A stretch of 42,042 nt of DNA. It comes from a virus. This document shows positions 4,392 through 41,545 of this stretch, in pieces. A program made the position numbers and the translations under genes. The notes under the pieces are model-generated. The model did not search any database, had not been told where the DNA came from, and saw only the letters and a program-made list of their open reading frames with translations. The stretch is from positions 1 to 42,042 of the IMG/VR virus record IMGVR_UViG_3300030107_004067. One strand, written 5' to 3'. Numbering within the stretch: position 1 is the first letter of the stretch; every line of letters starts with the position of its first letter.

Positions 4392-5396
4392 ATGAAAGAA
4401 ATACAATATGTAGATATTGTTGCCGATCTCTCTTGGGGAGATACCGGCAAAGGAAAAATAACATCTTATCTTGCGAAGGACAAATCATATGATTATGTTT
4501 GTCGCTGGGCTGGCGGTAACAATGCCGGACACACAGTTTTCTTAAAAGGAAAGAAATTTAAAACACATCTTATTCCATCTGGTGTCTTTCATGGAATTAA
4601 ATCAATTATCGGACCTCAATGTGTAGTGCATCCAGAGTCCTTACAAGAAGAGTTGAGCTATCTTAAAGAGAAAGGATTCGACACTTCCTTGGTTAAGGTC
4701 TCTCCGAGAGCACATATTGTAACAGATAAGCATATAACAACAGATAAAAAGAAATTAGCCAAGAAGCTTGGGACAACCTCCAAAGGTATAGCCCCATGCT
4801 ATTCAGACAAGATGGCTAGAACCGGACAACTAGCAAAAGATGTCCTCCCAGAAGAATTAATCTGGGATGAACAATTAAGTGGAAAAATTCTCTGCGAGGG
4901 GGCCCAAGGTTATTATTTAGATATAGACCATGGTAATTATCCTTATGTCACCTCATCAATTACACTACCCTATGGTGCTTGTTCCCTTGGGTTCCCTCCG
5001 CAGAAAATTCGCCGTATATGGGGCATAGCCAAGCTATATGATACCCGTTCTGGTGTGGATCCACTATTCCCCGATAAGCTCCTAAAAGACAAAGAATTGG
5101 CCAAATTGGGCGATCTAGGGGGTGAAGTTGGAGTAACAACCGGACGAAAAAGAAAGTGTAATTGGCTCAATGTCGATATGATGATTGATGCCGCGAGAAA
5201 AACAGGAACAACTCACTTGGTCATTAATAAATGCGATGTGATTAGAGAATTGGGAGTGTTTAAGTGTTATAGCGGAGGAGAGTTAAAAGAATTTTCTTCT
5301 TATCATAAATTAACGAGTTTCATTACCGATAAAGTTGGTCAATCAGACTCACTAGCCAAGCACATCTATCTATCAAACTCACCGGAGAGATTATGA
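4392..5396 (+). CDS. Adenylosuccinate synthetase family (PurA/PurZ-like)
   Basis: 334 residues, about 100 shorter than bacterial PurA and close to archaeal and phage forms. The family ligates aspartate to a purine 6-carbonyl using GTP (IMP to adenylosuccinate; phage PurZ uses dGMP). Visible motifs: the P-loop WGDTGKGK with the catalytic Asp at D17 and Thr in place of the usual Glu; GGNNAGHTV with His47; GTTSKGIAPCYSDK, with Lys where PurA has the inter-subunit Arg; CEGAQG; LDIDHGNYPYVTSS; VGVTTGRKRKCNWL; and NKCDV for guanine binding. PurA activity is the default because Asp17 is kept. The Thr18 and the short length make the PurZ0-type branch possible. It overlaps FEN by ATGA. Confidence 0.88.
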   Translation: MKEIQYVDIVADLSWGDTGKGKITSYLAKDKSYDYVCRWAGGNNAGHTVFLKGKKFKTHLIPSGVFHGIKSIIGPQCVVHPESLQEELSYLKEKGFDTSLVKVSPRAHIVTDKHITTDKKKLAKKLGTTSKGIAPCYSDKMARTGQLAKDVLPEELIWDEQLSGKILCEGAQGYYLDIDHGNYPYVTSSITLPYGACSLGFPPQKIRRIWGIAKLYDTRSGVDPLFPDKLLKDKELAKLGDLGGEVGVTTGRKRKCNWLNVDMMIDAARKTGTTHLVINKCDVIRELGVFKCYSGGELKEFSSYHKLTSFITDKVGQSDSLAKHIYLSNSPERL

Positions 5397-9773: not shown

Positions 9774-9961
9774 ACGATAAAATGTTAGAAATAATCAGTA
9801 TCTTAAACGGTACGGCAGATGATCTTGATAAGATTGAAAATAAAAAGTATGGCTATAAGTCATCTGCTGTTAGAGCGAGAAAAGCTTGTCAAGAAGCTAT
9901 TAACTTACTCAAACAAATGAGAAAAGACATTCAAGATTCTAAAAACGAAGTGGAGGGATAA
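9770..9961 (+). CDS. Small helical protein, Hc1/H1-like
   Basis: 63 residues, overlapping the reductase stop by ATGA. It has a predicted amphipathic helix, a basic turn (KKYGYKSSAVRARKA) and a second helix (LLKQMRKDI). The GxKxxxxRARKA pattern resembles the N-terminal part of the bacterial histone-H1-like Hc1 family and similar small marine-phage proteins. DNA binding is possible but unproven. It ends on the ATG of the co-chaperonin gene. Confidence 0.5.
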   Translation: MNDKMLEIISILNGTADDLDKIENKKYGYKSSAVRARKACQEAINLLKQMRKDIQDSKNEVEG

Positions 9962-10245
9962 TGAACTTTGAACCAACTAACCGTCACATTTTAGTTAAAC
10001 CCATCGAGGAGAAGAAAGAAGAAACAAATTCTATGATTATGCTCCCCGATGATTATAAAAAACAAGAATCACCTTATCTTGCTTGTTCTGTCCTCGCAGT
10101 AGCGAGCGACAGCAAGCTTGTTGGGTCTCTATCAGATAATGATACCATAATTGTTGAAAGAAGAATGCTAGAAAAAATAGAGATGAAAGGTAAAGAAATC
10201 TATTTAGTCCTAGACAATTATGTAATGGGGAGATTTACAAAATGA
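9961..10245 (+). CDS. GroES/gp31-like co-chaperonin
   Basis: 94 residues, the GroES size. NRHILVKPIEEKKEE is the first barrel strand. MIMLPDDYKKQ is in the position of the mobile loop whose hydrophobic tripeptide docks to GroEL (MIML compared with GIVL). ACSVLAVA, DNDTIIVERRMLEKIEMKGKEIYLVLDNYVMGRF gives the later strands of the barrel in GroES order. Overall identity is low, as for T4 gp31. It would cap a GroEL ring; a phage GroEL is at 36436, 26 kb away. Starts inside the preceding stop (GATAATG). Confidence 0.75.
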   Translation: MNFEPTNRHILVKPIEEKKEETNSMIMLPDDYKKQESPYLACSVLAVASDSKLVGSLSDNDTIIVERRMLEKIEMKGKEIYLVLDNYVMGRFTK

Positions 10246-14716: not shown

Positions 14717-15289
14717 ATGAAAAACGAATTTGTAATCTTCACTGGGCCCATGTTCGGTGGAAAAACTACAAGATTGCTTAGTGCAGTTGAAAGATATAGA
14801 TTGAAACAAAGAAAGGTTTTTACTTTTAAACCTTTGCGAGACACTCGTTATGATCCCGAAGGACAGTCTATTGTAACCCATAGAGGTTACGAAATTAACT
14901 CTCTGCCGATTGTAGCAGCAGAGGAGATATATTTGCATCTTGAAAAACGCCAAGCAAAATCTGGTGTCATTGCTTTGGATGAAGCTTTTATGGTTGAGGG
15001 TTCTGCGGAAGTTTTAATTGATTTATATAAGACTGGCTTTACTGTTTTGATCTCGTCATTGCAGCTTTCATCCGACCTTAAACCTTTTGAAGAAGTTGCT
15101 AAAATGTTACCTTGGGCGACTAGGGTTGAAGTTTGTCCCGCTGTATGCACTATTTGTGGGGCTGATGCTTTTTATACCTATAAAAAAGATGGTAATTTTA
15201 CTGGAGAAATAGAAGTGGGCGGAAAAGAAATGTACGAACCAAGATGTAGCGTACACCACTCTTGCGATATGAAAGCTTTGGGGGCTTGA
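14717..15289 (+). CDS. tdk: Thymidine kinase, type II
   Basis: 190 residues, the usual length. It phosphorylates thymidine with ATP. Walker A is GPMFGGKT (10-17) and the metal-binding Asp-Glu is in GVIALDEAFM. The C-terminal zinc lobe has CPAVCTICGADAFYT and EPRCSVHH. GGKEMYEPRC is the lasso that binds the nucleoside. It starts a short operon with the two membrane genes that follow. Confidence 0.95.
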   Translation: MKNEFVIFTGPMFGGKTTRLLSAVERYRLKQRKVFTFKPLRDTRYDPEGQSIVTHRGYEINSLPIVAAEEIYLHLEKRQAKSGVIALDEAFMVEGSAEVLIDLYKTGFTVLISSLQLSSDLKPFEEVAKMLPWATRVEVCPAVCTICGADAFYTYKKDGNFTGEIEVGGKEMYEPRCSVHHSCDMKALGA

Positions 15290-15636
15290 TGGATTATAGA
15301 CTAATAGTGGGTTTTTTATTTTTTACGGCAGCACAAACAATTGCTTGGTATCAACTTAACAGTCAATTTGTTTGGGAATTTTGGAAAGACAAGGCTCTTT
15401 TGTCATCATGTATTTTTGCTGTCCCTGTTTCATTGTTGTTTTGGTATGGAACAAAAAATATTTACGAAGCCTCAGATGCTCTATGGCCATCGAGATTTTT
15501 AGCTTTTTCAAGCGGCATGATAGTATTTACAACTTTAACTTGGATACATTTACATGAAAGCCCATTTAATCTAAAAACAACACTTTGTATAGTTTTGGCT
15601 TGCATGATAATAGCCATACAGGTCTTCATGAAGTAG
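15289..15636 (+). CDS. Four-helix membrane protein, SMR/DMT-like
   Basis: 115 residues; the ATG overlaps the tdk stop (TGATG). An in-frame ATG at 15262 has no ribosome site and lies inside tdk. Four hydrophobic segments (about residues 4-20, 32-50, 65-82 and 95-113) and the length match the small multidrug resistance/drug-metabolite transporter half-unit. The Glu expected in SMR helix 1 is absent, so drug export is not supported. It is probably an inner-membrane protein of the phage's own family, next to a phosphate transporter. Confidence 0.6.
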   Translation: MDYRLIVGFLFFTAAQTIAWYQLNSQFVWEFWKDKALLSSCIFAVPVSLLFWYGTKNIYEASDALWPSRFLAFSSGMIVFTTLTWIHLHESPFNLKTTLCIVLACMIIAIQVFMK

Positions 15637-16714: not shown

Positions 16715-17407
16715 GTGGAAGAAGATTACACCAGATTGATCATCTCAGATATACATATGGGTTCTTTGCATTCAAAGGAATCCAAGTTACAGAGATTATT
16801 AAATTCAGTAGATTTTGATGAAATCATACTCGCTGGTGACATTATCGACTTCATTCGTGTTCCAACATTCACAAAACATACAGCCGAATTGTTTCAGACA
16901 ATATCAGATTTGAACCGAGACAATAAAAGAATTATTTATATTGTTGGGAATCACGACATAGCTTTTAATAAGTTTGTAGGTGAGACCGTTGCTGGTATTG
17001 AGTTCATGGAAGAATATGAATTTGATTATGCAGGTCGCCACTATCGAGTGGAGCATGGCGATAAATACGAAAAAGGTATAGTCCATTGGAAATTCACCAT
17101 GAATATCGTTTCTATCTTTCATGATCTCTTGGAGAGGGTATTCAAGTGGAATCTTGCCGCTTGGTATGTGAGCCAACAACAAAAGAAAAGAAAGCTCAGA
17201 AGAGTGTGGGATATAATGAAACTCAACAAAGGGGCCGATGTATTTATCATGGGCCACACCCACATACCAGAAGTTGTTATTTGGGTTGATGAGATGGAGA
17301 AGATTAAAACCTATGCCAACATAGGTGATTGGGTTGAACACTCTACTTATATTCTAATTAAAGACGGACAACTTCGTCTCAAAACTTTTGAACCGGATGT
17401 GAAATGA
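16715..17407 (+). CDS. Calcineurin-like metallophosphoesterase, LpxH-like
   Basis: 230 residues from GTG with GCGGAG upstream. All metal ligands are present: SDIHMGS, GDIIDF, GNHD, VEHGD and GHTH. The insert of basic helices between HGD and GHTH (about residues 125-165, with WYVSQQQKKRKLRR) matches the lid of LpxH, the UDP-2,3-diacylglucosamine hydrolase of lipid A synthesis. A different small phosphodiester substrate is possible. If it is LpxH-like, it acts at the inner membrane of a Gram-negative host. It overlaps the Smr gene by ATGA. Confidence 0.82.
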   Translation: MEEDYTRLIISDIHMGSLHSKESKLQRLLNSVDFDEIILAGDIIDFIRVPTFTKHTAELFQTISDLNRDNKRIIYIVGNHDIAFNKFVGETVAGIEFMEEYEFDYAGRHYRVEHGDKYEKGIVHWKFTMNIVSIFHDLLERVFKWNLAAWYVSQQQKKRKLRRVWDIMKLNKGADVFIMGHTHIPEVVIWVDEMEKIKTYANIGDWVEHSTYILIKDGQLRLKTFEPDVK

Positions 17408-17673
17408 AGAAACTTGATTTACATGGAAAACGACATGATTCCGTCGAGACAGAAGTAGTAAATTTTATTTTAATGAATGAGCTTCCGGTTGAAGTTATTA
17501 CTGGAAATTCTCAAAAAATGAGAAGTATTGTTGCGAAAGCAGCAAAGAAACATGGTCTTGCTGTTTATCCAAAGGGGCTATCAAACCATGGTTCTTTTAT
17601 AGTTGTAGAAAAAACTGATTATTGTTTTGCGTGTGGTTGCGAGCCATGCGATTGTCACTGGGGGGATTACTAA
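17404..17673 (+). CDS. Mini-Smr domain protein with Cys-rich tail
   Basis: 89 residues. The Smr core is visible as LDLHG (4-8), a helix, PVEVITGNS (28-36, the TGxG-like loop) and a helix-strand (IVAKAAKKHGLAVYPKG). Smr domains are RNA endonucleases; bacterial SmrB cuts mRNA at collided ribosomes. The C-terminal tail has C74, C77, C79, C82, C84 and H85 (CFACGCEPCDCH), a probable zinc site not typical of Smr proteins. The ATG overlaps the previous stop and the TAATG end overlaps clpS, so Smr and ClpS are translationally coupled. Confidence 0.68.
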   Translation: MKKLDLHGKRHDSVETEVVNFILMNELPVEVITGNSQKMRSIVAKAAKKHGLAVYPKGLSNHGSFIVVEKTDYCFACGCEPCDCHWGDY

Positions 17674-17993
17674 TGCCTAAAAAGAAAATAGATAAACAAT
17701 CAGATCTCGGTCTACTGGACCGACATAAAGATAAAGTTGAGCCACCGAAGAAATTTAAAGTCGTGCTTTATAATGATGACTATACCTCGATGGATTTTGT
17801 TGTGGCGATCTTAGAAAAGATATTCCACAGGAATAAAGCAGATGCGACTGCTATTATGCTAAATGTACATAATTCTGGCAGAGGTGTAGCTGGTGTTTAC
17901 AGTAGAGAAATAGCAGAGACAAAAGTGGGTCAAGTAAAAGCCACCGCTTCTGCATATAAAGTGCCCTTACTTGCCGAAGCAGAACCAGAGTGA
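17673..17993 (+). CDS. clpS: ClpS adaptor
   Basis: 106 residues, the normal ClpS length. ClpS binds ClpA and delivers proteins with destabilising N-terminal residues to ClpAP. The flexible N-terminal arm is followed by the core: FKVVLYNDDYTSMDFVVAIL, which includes the NDD of the substrate pocket and the conserved TxMxFVVxIL; then IFHRNKADATAIMLNVHNSGRGVAGVYSREIAETK, matching the HxxGxGxxGxYxxExAExK region. The start chosen is the ATG in TAATG; an in-frame start 51 bases upstream lies inside the Smr gene. A phage ClpP is at 33762. Confidence 0.92.
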   Translation: MPKKKIDKQSDLGLLDRHKDKVEPPKKFKVVLYNDDYTSMDFVVAILEKIFHRNKADATAIMLNVHNSGRGVAGVYSREIAETKVGQVKATASAYKVPLLAEAEPE

Positions 17994-31010: not shown

Positions 31011-31323
31011 TTTATTATTAATGCTCGCCTGTGGCGATTCTCTTTCGGCATTGCCTTTGACAAAAGAATTTTATGAATGGCATTGTGAGCCCGAAACAGA
31101 GGATTACCCATTGGATAATGTATATGTTACTACAAACACTTGCGATGATAGCGTGACATGGATCATAGCAGAGATGCACCTTTATGATGGTGAATTGATG
31201 GCTCGTAGGTTGGAAAAAGATTCTTTAAGTGTTAATTGCGAATGGCATACTTATTTTCCTCTAATAAATGATTATTATTGTGAAGATGTTGAAGGTGTTA
31301 CACTAACTGCGTGGGTTAAATAA
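31003..31323 (+). CDS. Small lipoprotein
   Basis: 106 residues. The start at 31003 is chosen because GGAG sits 7 bases upstream; an ATG 12 bases earlier overlaps that site. The signal is only MISLLLMLAC, then a mature part with four cysteines (WHC, TC, NC, YC) that could pair in the periplasm. Its style matches the genes at 3016 and 20797. Function unknown. It overlaps the next gene by TAATG. Confidence 0.62.
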   Translation: MISLLLMLACGDSLSALPLTKEFYEWHCEPETEDYPLDNVYVTTNTCDDSVTWIIAEMHLYDGELMARRLEKDSLSVNCEWHTYFPLINDYYCEDVEGVTLTAWVK

Positions 31324-32333
31324 TGAAAATTACAGAAACAATAACTTTTGATGACCTTTTATTAGTGCCGCGTTATTCAGAAATAATGAGTCGTAAAACA
31401 ATCGACCTTCATTCTGATTTGGATACGAGTAGAAGACTTGATGTTCCGATTATTTCTTCACCAATGGATACCGTAACGGGAGCAACTATGGCTACCGCTA
31501 TGAGTAAAGCCGGTGGTCTTGGAATTATTCATCGCTACGATTCGATTGAAAAACAGTGTGATAGGGTTACAAGAACAAGGGGAAGAAAAGCCGCTGCCAT
31601 AGGAGTTACGGGCGACTATCTTGATAGGGCCTCTGCTCTTGTCAGGGCCGGTTGTGACATATTGTGTGTTGATGTCGCTCATGGACACCATGCTCTTATG
31701 AGACACGCTCTAAAAACTTTAAGAAATACAATAGGTTATGATATACACATCATGGCTGGAAACGTTGCAACTTTGGAGGGCTTTAACGATTTAGCTGATT
31801 GGGGTGCCAATTCTATTCGTGTTGGCATTGGAGGTGGCTCAATATGTTCAACACGAATACAAACCGGACATGGGGTTCCTACATTACAATCAGTCATGGA
31901 CTGCTCTCAATCCGATAGGTCGGTAGCACTAATTGCTGATGGTGGAATTAAAACGCCGGGTGACATTGTAAAGGCTCTCGCTGCTGGTGCTGATTTTGTT
32001 ATGCTAGGTTCTATGCTTGCTGGAACAGCAGAATCACCGGGGCAAGTGTTTTATGGCGAGAATGGACAATACAAGTCTTATCGAGGCATGGCATCGGTAG
32101 AGGCCCAGATTGATTGGAGGGGGCACACTGCTTCGGTAGAGGGGGTGTCCCACACTATACCATATAAAGGATCAGTTGTTGAGATTCTCATGGGATTAGA
32201 AGGTAGCATTAGAAGCGGCTTATCTTATACTGGTGCTTTGAATCTTAGCGAATTAAGATCAAAATCAAAGTTTATCAAACAAACTGCCGCAGGTCAGACA
32301 GAAAGTAGTACCCACATCAAGTCAAGGTACTAA
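31323..32333 (+). CDS. IMP dehydrogenase/GMP reductase family enzyme
   Basis: 336 residues, a bare TIM barrel without CBS domains. TFDDLLLVP and [28 protein letters not shown] are the family opening. VDVAHGH and [10 protein letters not shown] follow. The catalytic Cys is C175 in [44 protein letters not shown] is the phosphate site. The C-terminus (IPYKGSV...[11 protein letters not shown]) is closer to IMPDH than to GMP reductase, but the IMPDH Arg-Tyr flap is not clear. IMPDH makes XMP on the way to GMP, so with the PurA-like enzyme at 4392 the phage touches both IMP branches. Confidence 0.88.
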
Positions 32334-36435: not shown

Positions 36436-38007
36436 ATGACTAAGCACTATAGCAATGGTCAAGGCTTGAACACGAAACTGTTGAGTGGAATCAATAAGCT
36501 CGCCGATAATGTCGGAAGCACCCTTGGCCCAAAAGGCCGCAATGTTATTCTTTTTCATAAAGAACAAAACACCCCCGTCATTACAAAAGACGGGGTAACT
36601 ATCGCGAAGTTTGTAGAATTTGAAGATCCCTTTGAGAACGTTGGGGCTCAAATTGTAAAACAAGCTGCCGAAGAATCTGCAAATAATGCTGGCGACGGGA
36701 CAACAACCACAACGGTTCTTGCCCGTGGTATCATTAACCGAGCGCAAAAGTATATTACTGCGGGGGTCTCTCCGATTGAATTGAAGCGTGGTATGGATGC
36801 AACGACAACGGCCCTGACCGCCCAGTTGAAAGAACTGTCTCGACCAATCCAAAGCGAAGAAGACATACAGCATGTTGCAACCATCTCGGCTAACAATGAT
36901 ACAACAATTGGAACATTGATCGCTAAGGCTGTTGACTGCGCGGGTAAGGATGGCTCTGTCATTGTTGAGGAGGCGAGATCAATTGAGACATCGCTAGATC
37001 TTATTGAGGGGTTTCGATTTGATTCGGGCTATCTTGCAACCGCCTTTGTAACCGATGAAAGAAACGGAATAGTTAATTATGAAAACCCACTTATTCTCGT
37101 TACCGACGAGAAGATTGAGTATGTTGATCAAATTCTTCCAACGCTTGAACTCGCTGCGCGAGAAAATCGACCACTGCTTTTTGTTGCAAATGATATTGTT
37201 GATCAAGCATTGGCAGCACTTATCATGAACACTGTACGGGGCTCTTTAAAGGTTGCCGCTGTTAAGGCCCCTCGCTATGGAGAGGAACGTAGGAACATTA
37301 TGAAAGACCTATGCGTTTCCATAGGCGCAACTTACCTCACCAGAGAAACTGGCTTACAACTTAAAGATGTTCAGCTTAAGCATTTTGGAAACTGCAAAAA
37401 GATTTCAATCAACAAAAGTTGGACAACTATCGTCGGCGGCAAAGGAGAACAAAATGAGATTGACAAACAAATTGAGACGATTAAAGCGGAGATTAAAGCC
37501 ACCGAGTCGCTTAAAGAATGCGAACGTCATCAGGAACGGATCACTCGTCTTGCTAGTGGCGTTGCTGTTATTAGGGTCGGAGCAGCTACAGAAGTGGAAA
37601 TGATAGAGAAAAAACATCGCATAGACGATGCTCTTGAAGCGGTTAAATCCGCCCAATTAGAAGGTATTGTTCCGGGGGGTGGTTGTGCTCTTATACATGC
37701 CGCAAAGTGCATAGAAATCAATGATTTGAGCGAGGAACAGGCCATTGGACGAGACATTGTACTTGAAGCAATTCAAGAACCTTTGAGACAAATGGCAACA
37801 AACGCGGGACTTTCTCCTGACTTAGTTGTTAGTCAAGTTATTAACTCAAATGAGGGCAACGGTTACGATTTCATGACAAATGAGGTAAAAGAACTTACAT
37901 CCTCTGGTATCATCGATCCCACAAAAGTAACACGTTGTGCTCTTGAAAACGCTGTCTCCGTCGCCTCAACTTTATTAACAACAGGGCACGCCATTGTATC
38001 GCAGTGA
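36436..38007 (+). CDS. groEL: Chaperonin GroEL
   Basis: 523 residues (E. coli 548) with GGAGG. It is an ATP-driven folding ring. Equatorial ATP motifs are present: TLGPKGRNVIL, KDGVTIAK, NAGDGTTTTTVLARGI and IVPGGGCALIHA near the C-terminus. The hydrolysis Asp is in HRIDDALEAVKSA, and GIIDPTKVTR matches the GILDPTKVTR end. The apical domain is diverged, for example IEGFRFDSGYLATAFVTDE in place of the usual GMxFDRGYxSPYFxT. The Gly-Gly-Met tail is missing; it ends TTGHAIVSQ. This is a full phage chaperonin, with a GroES-like partner at 9961. Confidence 0.95.
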   Translation: MTKHYSNGQGLNTKLLSGINKLADNVGSTLGPKGRNVILFHKEQNTPVITKDGVTIAKFVEFEDPFENVGAQIVKQAAEESANNAGDGTTTTTVLARGIINRAQKYITAGVSPIELKRGMDATTTALTAQLKELSRPIQSEEDIQHVATISANNDTTIGTLIAKAVDCAGKDGSVIVEEARSIETSLDLIEGFRFDSGYLATAFVTDERNGIVNYENPLILVTDEKIEYVDQILPTLELAARENRPLLFVANDIVDQALAALIMNTVRGSLKVAAVKAPRYGEERRNIMKDLCVSIGATYLTRETGLQLKDVQLKHFGNCKKISINKSWTTIVGGKGEQNEIDKQIETIKAEIKATESLKECERHQERITRLASGVAVIRVGAATEVEMIEKKHRIDDALEAVKSAQLEGIVPGGGCALIHAAKCIEINDLSEEQAIGRDIVLEAIQEPLRQMATNAGLSPDLVVSQVINSNEGNGYDFMTNEVKELTSSGIIDPTKVTRCALENAVSVASTLLTTGHAIVSQ

Positions 38008-40542: not shown

Positions 40543-40570
40543 TTGACAAACTCTCTAAACTGGTTATAAT
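40543..40570 (+). promoter_or_regulatory. Consensus sigma70 promoter for the tmRNA region
   Basis: TTGACA (40543-40548), a 16-base spacer and TATAAT (40565-40570). The only promoter seen before the tmRNA, so the tmRNA is probably cut out of this transcript. Confidence 0.85.
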
Positions 40571-40595: not shown

Positions 40596-40751
40596 ATGGA
40601 CAAAATTAAACAATTTGTACCAAAAATCGCAATTTTGTTAGCTGGGATCCTTTTTGGCCTTATCATTCAACAATCGTGCGTTAAAGATGCCCCTGTTGGT
40701 TCTGACTTTTCGGATGATGAGTTTATAGAAAATCTATCTAATTATGAATAA
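40596..40751 (+). CDS. Small single-pass membrane protein
   Basis: 51 residues with CGGAGG. One hydrophobic segment (IAILLAGILFGLIIQQSC) and an acidic tail (SDFSDDEFIENLSNYE). The Cys after the segment is not in a good lipobox. Unrecognised. Confidence 0.6.
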   Translation: MDKIKQFVPKIAILLAGILFGLIIQQSCVKDAPVGSDFSDDEFIENLSNYE

Positions 40752-40764
40752 GGGGGCTTACAAA

Positions 40765-40821
40765 ATGGAAAATTGTAAATGTTGCAAGTGTTGTCAATGT
40801 GATTGTGAAAATTGCTGTTAA
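40765..40821 (+). CDS. Cysteine-rich 18-residue micropeptide
   Basis: MENCKCCKCCQCDCENCC: nine of 18 residues are cysteine, in CxCCxCCxCxC spacing like a metallothionein fragment. AGGGGG lies about 8 bases before the ATG. It lies between a membrane-protein gene and the tmRNA (6 bases away) on the same predicted transcript. It could bind Zn or Cu or buffer metals or redox. Translation is unproven, but half the codons being Cys codons is hard to explain by chance. Confidence 0.5.
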   Translation: MENCKCCKCCQCDCENCC

Positions 40822-40826
40822 TTTAA

Positions 40827-41165
40827 GGGGGTTACATGGTTTCGACAGCGTAGAACTCGGAGGCCGAGTGCAGGTAGGTAAGATACAACCTTAAAAGTTC
40901 AAACTTAATAATTGCAAACAATAATTTGTTTTTTGAAGAAGTAGCCTTAGCTGCTTAATCAGGTGGTCGCTTCACGCCATCTGTCCAAGTGAAGCAACAC
41001 AACAGATAAGTTGTAAAAATCAAAAAACTTGGTGCAACAGGGCAGTAAGCATCATTTTAAAACTGCCTATCTTTGTCGGAGTTGTGATAGAAAACCGACT
41101 AAACCTGTGAATGACTTTAATCTTAGCTGCGTTGGACAGGGGTTCGATTCCCCTATCCTCCACCA
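40827..41165 (+). ncRNA. ssrA: Transfer-messenger RNA (one-piece tmRNA)
   Basis: About 339 bases. The tRNA-like part is clear: 5' GGGGGTT pairs with ATCCTCC before ACCA (one U-U mismatch), with the G3-U wobble that marks alanine charging. GGTTTCGACAG is the conserved tmRNA 5' segment and AGGGGTTCGATTCCCCT the T arm; CCA is encoded. The tag frame starts at GCA 40914 and ends at TAA 40956-40958, giving ANNNLFFEEVALAA, which after the charged Ala ends in the ClpXP/ClpAP degron ALAA. It frees stalled ribosomes and tags the product. No SmpB gene is in the window, so host SmpB is presumably used. Confidence 0.95.
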
Positions 41166-41181: not shown

Positions 41182-41343
41182 ATGAATTTTTTAACATCAT
41201 CAAAACTTAGTTTAGCTTGTGCTATTATCAACGTGGTGATGGCTTTAATGTCAATCGGCGCAGGTAATTGGACTTGGGCTGCGATTTGTATGATACTGGC
41301 TGTCTTTTGTTATAACAATTATTTAAATGCGGAGGAACGATGA
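41182..41343 (+). CDS. Small two-helix membrane protein
   Basis: 53 residues with AAGGAG. Two hydrophobic segments (LSLACAIINVVMALMSIGAG and WAAICMILAVFCYNNYL). It overlaps the next gene by ATGA. Unrecognised. Confidence 0.6.
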   Translation: MNFLTSSKLSLACAIINVVMALMSIGAGNWTWAAICMILAVFCYNNYLNAEER

Positions 41344-41501
41344 AGCCCGGCGATCAAGTACATGTATCTAATTATAAAAATGATACGCTTCAAATTATGA
41401 CTGTATTGGAAGTCACAGACATGAGTGTAAAACTAAAACACCCAGAGATTGGCGGCTTCTTCATAGTTTCTAAGGAAAGAGTTCACCCAATAGAGAAATA
41501 A
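41340..41501 (+). CDS. Small SH3/KOW-like protein
   Basis: 53 residues with GGAGGA upstream. MKPGDQVHVSNYKNDTL, IMTVLEVTDMSVKLKHP and GFFIVSKERVHPIE give the strands of a small barrel, related in style to the GDLV proteins. Function unknown. Confidence 0.55.
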   Translation: MKPGDQVHVSNYKNDTLQIMTVLEVTDMSVKLKHPEIGGFFIVSKERVHPIEK

Positions 41502-41522
41502 CATCACCACATAAAACTTATA

Positions 41523-41545
41523 AAGGCCCTCTGGGGCCTTTTTTT
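41523..41545 (+). terminator. Intrinsic terminator
   Basis: AAGGCCC / GGGCCTT with loop TCTG, then a run of seven T. Ends the tmRNA operon. Confidence 0.88.

Follow-up and report, generated by a model that had tools for sequence, protein, structure and literature searches.

The window analysed here, a 42,042-base fragment of a phage genome held as an IMG/VR virus record, encodes a complete one-piece tmRNA (ssrA), the kind of RNA that releases stalled ribosomes and tags unfinished proteins for degradation, and our comparisons suggest that this gene belongs to what appears to be a new, virus-only lineage of one-piece tmRNAs with a tag class of its own, in phages that also carry a ClpP with Asn in its catalytic triad. 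We think it likely that this is a working tmRNA of the phage lineage, not a recent copy of a host gene, and that it rescues ribosomes by way of host SmpB and AlaRS. The window comes from an environmental, apparently marine, phage of the T4 type. A literature search, with most subscription journals outside it, returned no paper on a tmRNA lineage restricted to viruses and having tags of a separate class.

Table 1. Features of the window discussed in the text, with positions in the window.
Feature	Position	Strand	Basis or remark
One-piece tmRNA (ssrA) gene	40827..41165	+	ARAGORN; RF00023; covariation across 13 phage tmRNAs
Tag reading frame ANNNLFFEEVALAA + stop, resume codon GCA	40914..40958	+	ARAGORN, sequence reading
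Acceptor stem, 5' half	40827..40833	+	G3 (40829) pairs with U 41159; U6 (40832) opposite U 41156
Acceptor stem, 3' half, with discriminator A and encoded CCA	41155..41165	+	RF00023 alignment, sequence
Perfect sigma-70 promoter TTGACA-N16-TATAAT, upstream of tmRNA unit	40543..40570	+	
51-aa small membrane-type ORF, first in tmRNA unit	40596..40751	+	No family
18-aa cysteine-rich ORF MENCKCCKCCQCDCENCC, abuts tmRNA 5' side	40765..40821	+	Sequence reading; may not be translated
53-aa ORF directly 3' of tmRNA	41182..41343	+	No family; similar ORF after L188 tmRNA
53-aa ORF, last in tmRNA unit	41340..41501	+	
Intrinsic terminator ending tmRNA unit of ~1 kb	41522..41541	+	
Phage ClpP, 216 aa	33762..34412	+	PF00574 E 1.9e-34; alignment with E. 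coli ClpP
Phage ClpS, Clp adaptor	17670..17993	+	PF02617 E 2.5e-31; NCBIfam ClpS above cut-off
Phage GroEL	36436..38007	+	phrog_5725 E 3.9e-137; TIGR02348 above cut-off
Phage GroES-like protein	9961..10245	+	PF00166 E 2.5e-8

The tmRNA gene and its setting

The tmRNA is the sole gene that ARAGORN reports in the whole window (40827-41165, + strand), with the tag ANNNLFFEEVALAA followed by a stop, and the Rfam model RF00023 matched the same bases over its full length (model positions 1-374 of 374) with 100.9 bits and an E-value of 1.9e-38. Since the gathering score of this family is 47, the match is not due to chance. The first-pass annotation had described a complete one-piece tmRNA with a G3-U pair, a resume codon and a tag, and had proposed a covariance-model search as the check; the search and ARAGORN agree with that description and give identical coordinates. 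The folding energy of the RNA is -93.9 kcal/mol (z -2.59 against shuffled sequences, none of which equalled it). Its acceptor stem, GGGGGUU/AUCCUCC, contains the G3-U70 wobble, and the sixth pair is a U-U mismatch that is also found in the two closest relatives. The tag frame is read as GCA AAC AAT AAT TTG TTT TTT GAA GAA GTA GCC TTA GCT GCT TAA, and the 3' CCA is encoded in the gene. The molecule combines a tRNA-like domain carrying G3-U70 with an open frame that begins at an alanine resume codon and finishes in an AA, Clp-type, end.

Perfect promoters of the form TTGACA-N16/17-TATAAT occur seven times in the window, all on the + strand (starting at 2080, 4343, 14672, 20332, 33298, 36380 and 40543), against 0.07 expected, which points to host sigma-70 polymerase as the transcribing enzyme. 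The perfect form upstream of the tmRNA is not retained in most relatives. A stretch resembling the MENCKCCKCCQCDCENCC ORF seemingly also precedes the tmRNA in one relative, G001. Shine-Dalgarno sites were found before 24 of the 47 window genes (background 0.08), compared with 2 of 28 in a Flavobacterium phage. A Bacteroidota host, considered from the GroEL matches and the L188 MAG described below, is disfavoured, because this Shine-Dalgarno use and the consensus promoters speak against it.

Besides GroEL and GroES, the window encodes a DnaB-like helicase, a DnaE-like polymerase and a ribonucleotide reductase, as well as ClpP, ClpS and proteins like adenylosuccinate synthetase and IMPDH; from the translations, genes resembling those for RecA, ThyX, thymidine kinase and dUTPase were recognised by eye. 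The adenylosuccinate synthetase-like protein (4392-5396) is nearer PurA than PurZ (262 vs 113 bits), and together with the IMPDH-like protein (31323-32333) it places purine pathway genes in the phage. We also observed a protein with a tubulin/FtsZ-like glycine-rich start (955-1761) that falls in no Pfam or PHROG family and has look-alikes in L188 and in the relative G003. In addition, many proteins (window 10242, 19174, 32730 and 39832, and many in G003) have MKxxKxxLKxxIKEEL-like N-termini, which resemble the T4 capsid-targeting sequences that the head protease cleaves.

Related phages, the viral clade and its tags

Relatives were gathered by a GroEL search, which gave 80 loci, and 50 records were then searched with RF00023. 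The first-pass annotation had called phage tmRNAs rare, and this holds for isolate phages, where 402 of 18,146 genomes (~2.3%) carry one (PMC9004378); in the present lineage it does not, as 12 of the 50 records contain a tmRNA above the RF00023 cut-off. Among viral sequences at large, 109 stretches match the loose ANNN tag pattern defined below. The tag ANNNLFFEEVALAA is shared by the window, G001 and G002. The other tags are ANNNNYFEVAQAA (G003, G005), ANNNNHFELALAA (G039, G040), ANNSNYSELALAA (G045), ANNTAHFDSLALAA and ANNTAHFDSSALLAA (G043, G044), ANDNVDFEYALAA (G048), ANDNVSFDYALAA (G042) and ANDNVEFDYALAA (G025); the last was read from the alignment, the ARAGORN call for G025 being a misreading. 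All of the relatives' tag frames are open and all end in AA. In an alignment of 13 phage tmRNAs, G3-U70 is present in 13 of 13 and compensatory changes occur in 25 of the 42 consensus pairs, implying that selection acts on the tmRNA. The location of the gene varies between divergent phages, and RF00023 detected no tmRNA in two large records, G017 (184 kb) and G033 (159 kb), so the tmRNA looks dispensable. A blastn search of the tmRNA regions against isolate phages gave no comparable gene.

We considered whether an HTH-like protein upstream of the tmRNA in G025, G039, G040 and G045 could be its partner. This conserved protein of ~120 aa, for which we found no named family, is present in all eight searched records of at least 120 kb and adjoins the tmRNA in four; as it also occurs in G003, G017, G033, G042 and G048, it belongs to the core gene set of these large genomes, including those where no tmRNA was found, and the candidate was rejected.

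The viral tags share the pattern ANNNxx[F/Y][E/D]...AA. The exact tag ANNNLFFEEVALAA was absent from GTDB contigs of 84,980 bacterial and archaeal species, and its two matches among viral contigs are known relatives. It is plausible that the tag differs from the host's own, as had been suggested at the outset, the comparison here being with catalogued genomes. Relaxed to ANNN...AA following the conserved TAATTGC, the pattern matched 52 bacterial and 109 viral stretches, from which ARAGORN read 42 bacterial and 62 viral tmRNAs. F followed by D or E occurs in 37 of the 62 viral tags vs 2 of the 42 from bacterial assemblies, counts that cover ANNN-type tags because the pattern pre-selects them. 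Both of the bacterial-assembly tags with F[D/E], L188 and L170, lie on phage-like DNA. L188 is a 4.7-kb contig binned as Flavobacteriales, with a tubulin-like gene and an ORF like the one that follows the window tmRNA. L170 is a locus in a WOR-3 chromosome that has a higher-scoring second tmRNA elsewhere, and its phage-type tmRNA adjoins a homologue of the protein seen upstream of phage tmRNAs. We regard both as probable phage DNA inside bacterial assemblies.

In a maximum-likelihood tree, the 14 phage-type tmRNAs form one group (97/87). In a larger tree, whose bootstrap had not settled, a branch at 96/87 splits 38 viral rows from 17 bacterial rows, the latter a small sample (E. coli, Firmicutes, Spirochaetes, Desulfovibrio, Atribacteria, WOR-3 and the phylum of the L188 MAG) from which Myxococcota and other possible host phyla are missing. 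Contamination by a host ssrA was rejected because the relatives hold the tmRNA among phage genes and the viral tmRNAs form a single branch. That the tmRNA is phage-encoded is supported by its place among phage genes, by its recurrence in relatives and by its position in the viral tmRNA clade.

Probable ribosome rescue, phage Clp proteins and alternative readings

Expression, charging, rescue, tagging and degradation, as well as any role of phage ClpP, are steps that we infer. Host RNA polymerase would transcribe the tmRNA, most likely early, starting at the consensus sigma-70 promoter. Its ends would be trimmed by host enzymes and alanine would be attached by host AlaRS by way of G3-U70. Host EF-Tu and SmpB would then carry it to ribosomes that have stalled on broken mRNA, a situation expected to be common during the destruction of host mRNA. 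Rescued ribosomes would be returned to phage translation, with ANNNLFFEEVALAA added to the half-made proteins. Because the -ALAA end is of the type that ClpX and ClpA read, the tagged fragments would probably be passed by host Clp ATPases to host ClpP, or to a ClpP of mixed host and phage origin, and degraded there. Host tmRNA is stable during T4 infection, and the authors of that study suggest that ribosomes are thereby kept available (PMC9697503). SmpB (PF01668) was found in none of 38 records, window included, an absence that is provisional as these are fragments; the phage tmRNA must therefore rely on host SmpB and, as far as these fragments show, is not part of a self-sufficient trans-translation module.

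The first-pass annotation had also suggested that the tag may route products to a phage-modified Clp, and genes for a phage ClpP and ClpS are indeed present. The window ClpP scores 119.5 bits against PF00574 (cut-off 20.2) and retains the Ser and His of the triad with Asn in place of Asp, so that the canonical Ser-His-Asp triad is lacking. Asn occupies this position in 18 of 18 aligned phage ClpPs, within VN[V/I]YL[S/T] vs RDRFLS in E. coli. The window ClpS retains its NDD and H ligand residues, those of the N-degron pocket. ClpP was found in all 38 records searched and ClpS in three (G000, G001 and G049, the window included), and a Clp ATPase domain was detected neither in the window nor in any tmRNA-bearing record; the three records that have it, G030, G033 and G047, yielded no tmRNA. 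These distributions led us to reject a strict pairing of tmRNA and Clp genes: ClpP also occurs in phages without a detected tmRNA, and the two are therefore not specifically linked. The Clp part of the suggestion is partly supported, by the presence of genes for ClpP and ClpS, and the routing itself is a proposal. Beside ClpS we noticed a weak Smr-domain protein with a DLHG motif (17404-17673, below the Pfam cut-off). Bacterial Smr proteins cut mRNA at collided ribosomes.

By profile comparison, the window ClpP is closer to models of cellular ClpP than to that of a ClpP-related head protease, although its top PHROGs matches are head maturation proteases. In the 141-kb relative G003, terminase, Portal_T4, Gp23 and tail sheath make up a structural module of T4 type, which also holds a separate S77 prohead protease of the gp21 type (14733-15350); the ClpP of G003 (75907-76620) is 45-61 kb away from the S77 protease and the Gp23 capsid gene. 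This arrangement disfavours a head-protease role for phage ClpP, and the window ClpP is probably not a head protease, judging from the relative in which the test was made.

The strongest alternative, to which we give somewhat less than an even chance, is ordinary rescue with a tag shaped by drift that needs only an AA-type Clp end, phage ClpP and ClpS serving other ends such as degradation of host proteins. It has the rescue step in common with our preferred explanation, and the two part over whether the tag has any importance. Drift agrees with tags that differ between phage clusters while nearly all of them retain an A/L-A-A end, and with Clp genes that do not travel with the tmRNA, given the ubiquity of ClpP and the scarcity of ClpS noted above. 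It accounts less well for the ANNN start and the aromatic-acidic pair, a combination found repeatedly throughout a divergent viral clade and not seen in ordinary bacterial tags that begin with ANNN.

Rather unlikely, in our estimate, is a routing of tagged products into a Clp machine of which phage ClpP is a part. This proposal draws on a likeness to Listeria ClpP1, in which Asp172 is likewise replaced by Asn and which is active only in a heterocomplex with a second ClpP and stimulated with ClpX (PMC5361862); the invariant Asn of the phage ClpPs and the separate head protease of G003, by which phage ClpP is probably not such an enzyme, would fit as well. Against it, several positions of the E. 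coli pocket that docks ClpX loops (Y60, F112 and L114) are altered on our reading of the alignment, the best PHROGs matches are those to head maturation proteases, and no physical or genetic tie between ClpP and the tmRNA was found. A wider reading, which we judge unlikely, is that a large group of environmental T4-type phages has an ssrA lineage distinct from the bacterial one, with the phage-specific tag class ANNNxx[F/Y][E/D]...LAA, and that this tag steers rescued products to a Clp protease remodelled by a Ser-His-Asn phage ClpP; if true, the phage would set the fate of half-made proteins during infection.

It is quite improbable that the tmRNA acts in counter-defence, by replacing or decoying the host tmRNA- or tRNA-like targets of abortive-infection nucleases or by restoring ribosomes after mRNA-cutting toxins. 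Evasion of tRNA-cutting defences has been proposed for phage tRNAs (PMC10264068), one known phage tmRNA (DS6A) consists of the TLD only and inhibition of tmRNA has been reported for a molecule like it (PMC4131195), and the patchy occurrence of the tmRNA within the lineage would be in keeping with such a role; however, a decoy needs no open, conserved tag frame, and no specific defence is known here. A passenger ssrA, acquired when an integrating element excised imprecisely or else as its attachment site, is very improbable even though integration at ssrA is common (in E. coli the cryptic prophage CP4-57 adjoins the gene), because no integrase was recognised in the window and the tmRNA is complete, conserved in structure, differently placed in divergent phages and within the viral clade.

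Our preferred explanation remains a working tmRNA of the phage lineage, although the U-U mismatch in the acceptor stem, the apparent dispensability of the gene, the perfect promoter missing from most relatives, the SmpB not found in any record, the occurrence of ClpP where no tmRNA was detected and the small bacterial sample of the trees weigh against it. Phage tmRNAs have been catalogued for years and their purpose is not known; a virus-only lineage with its own tag class makes it possible to test whether phages require ribosome rescue of their own, and whether the choice of protease for tagged products is under phage control, with the conserved Asn-triad ClpP as a concrete partner for such tests. 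The tag signature also flags phage DNA misbinned into bacterial genomes.

Comparison with known systems

Phage tmRNAs as such are known, and so, separately, are phage ClpP and ClpS. One close parallel is the methylophage Melnitz and the pelagimyophages, marine T4-like myophages that likewise have a complete tmRNA with no integrase reported, and in that group the gene is likewise patchy (17 of 47 contigs) (PMC9004378). The Melnitz tmRNA, however, is two-piece and permuted, of alphaproteobacterial type and accompanied by a glutamine riboswitch (PMC9004378), whereas that of the window is one-piece and falls in a separate viral clade. Bacillus phage G and the mycobacteriophages Bxz1 and Wildcat also carry tmRNAs (PMC4131195). 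Of these, our comparison covers the phage G tmRNA, which scores 67.6 bits and in one tree was placed closest to the viral clade (93/79), on a long branch and with unsure placement. Huge phages can have a tmRNA together with SmpB (PMC7162821), unlike the window phage, in which SmpB was not detected, and ClpP or ClpS is known from jumbo phages (PMC7824862), whereas the window joins tmRNA, ClpP, ClpS, GroEL and GroES in one phage. E. coli SsrA (ANDENYALAA) resembles the window tmRNA in being one-piece, in G3-U70 and in the ALAA tag end; it lies on the bacterial side of the tree, and its tag is of the 10-residue DENY type, whereas that of the window has 14 residues and an aromatic-acidic centre.

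A distant cultured relative of the window phage is the Myxococcus phage Mx1 (OR576727.2), which like the window encodes a DnaE-like polymerase, RecA, ClpP and an intact one-piece tmRNA. The Mx1 tmRNA (OR576727.2 46646-47023; L220 1501-1877) scores 117.7 bits and has the tag VNTNVFGSQMMAAA; it is unannotated in the GenBank record, where a 'Hef-like endonuclease' is placed over its end. In our trees it falls outside the viral clade, from which it is not firmly excluded (AU p 0.057). Mx1 infects Myxococcus, and its tmRNA gives a genetically workable host system.
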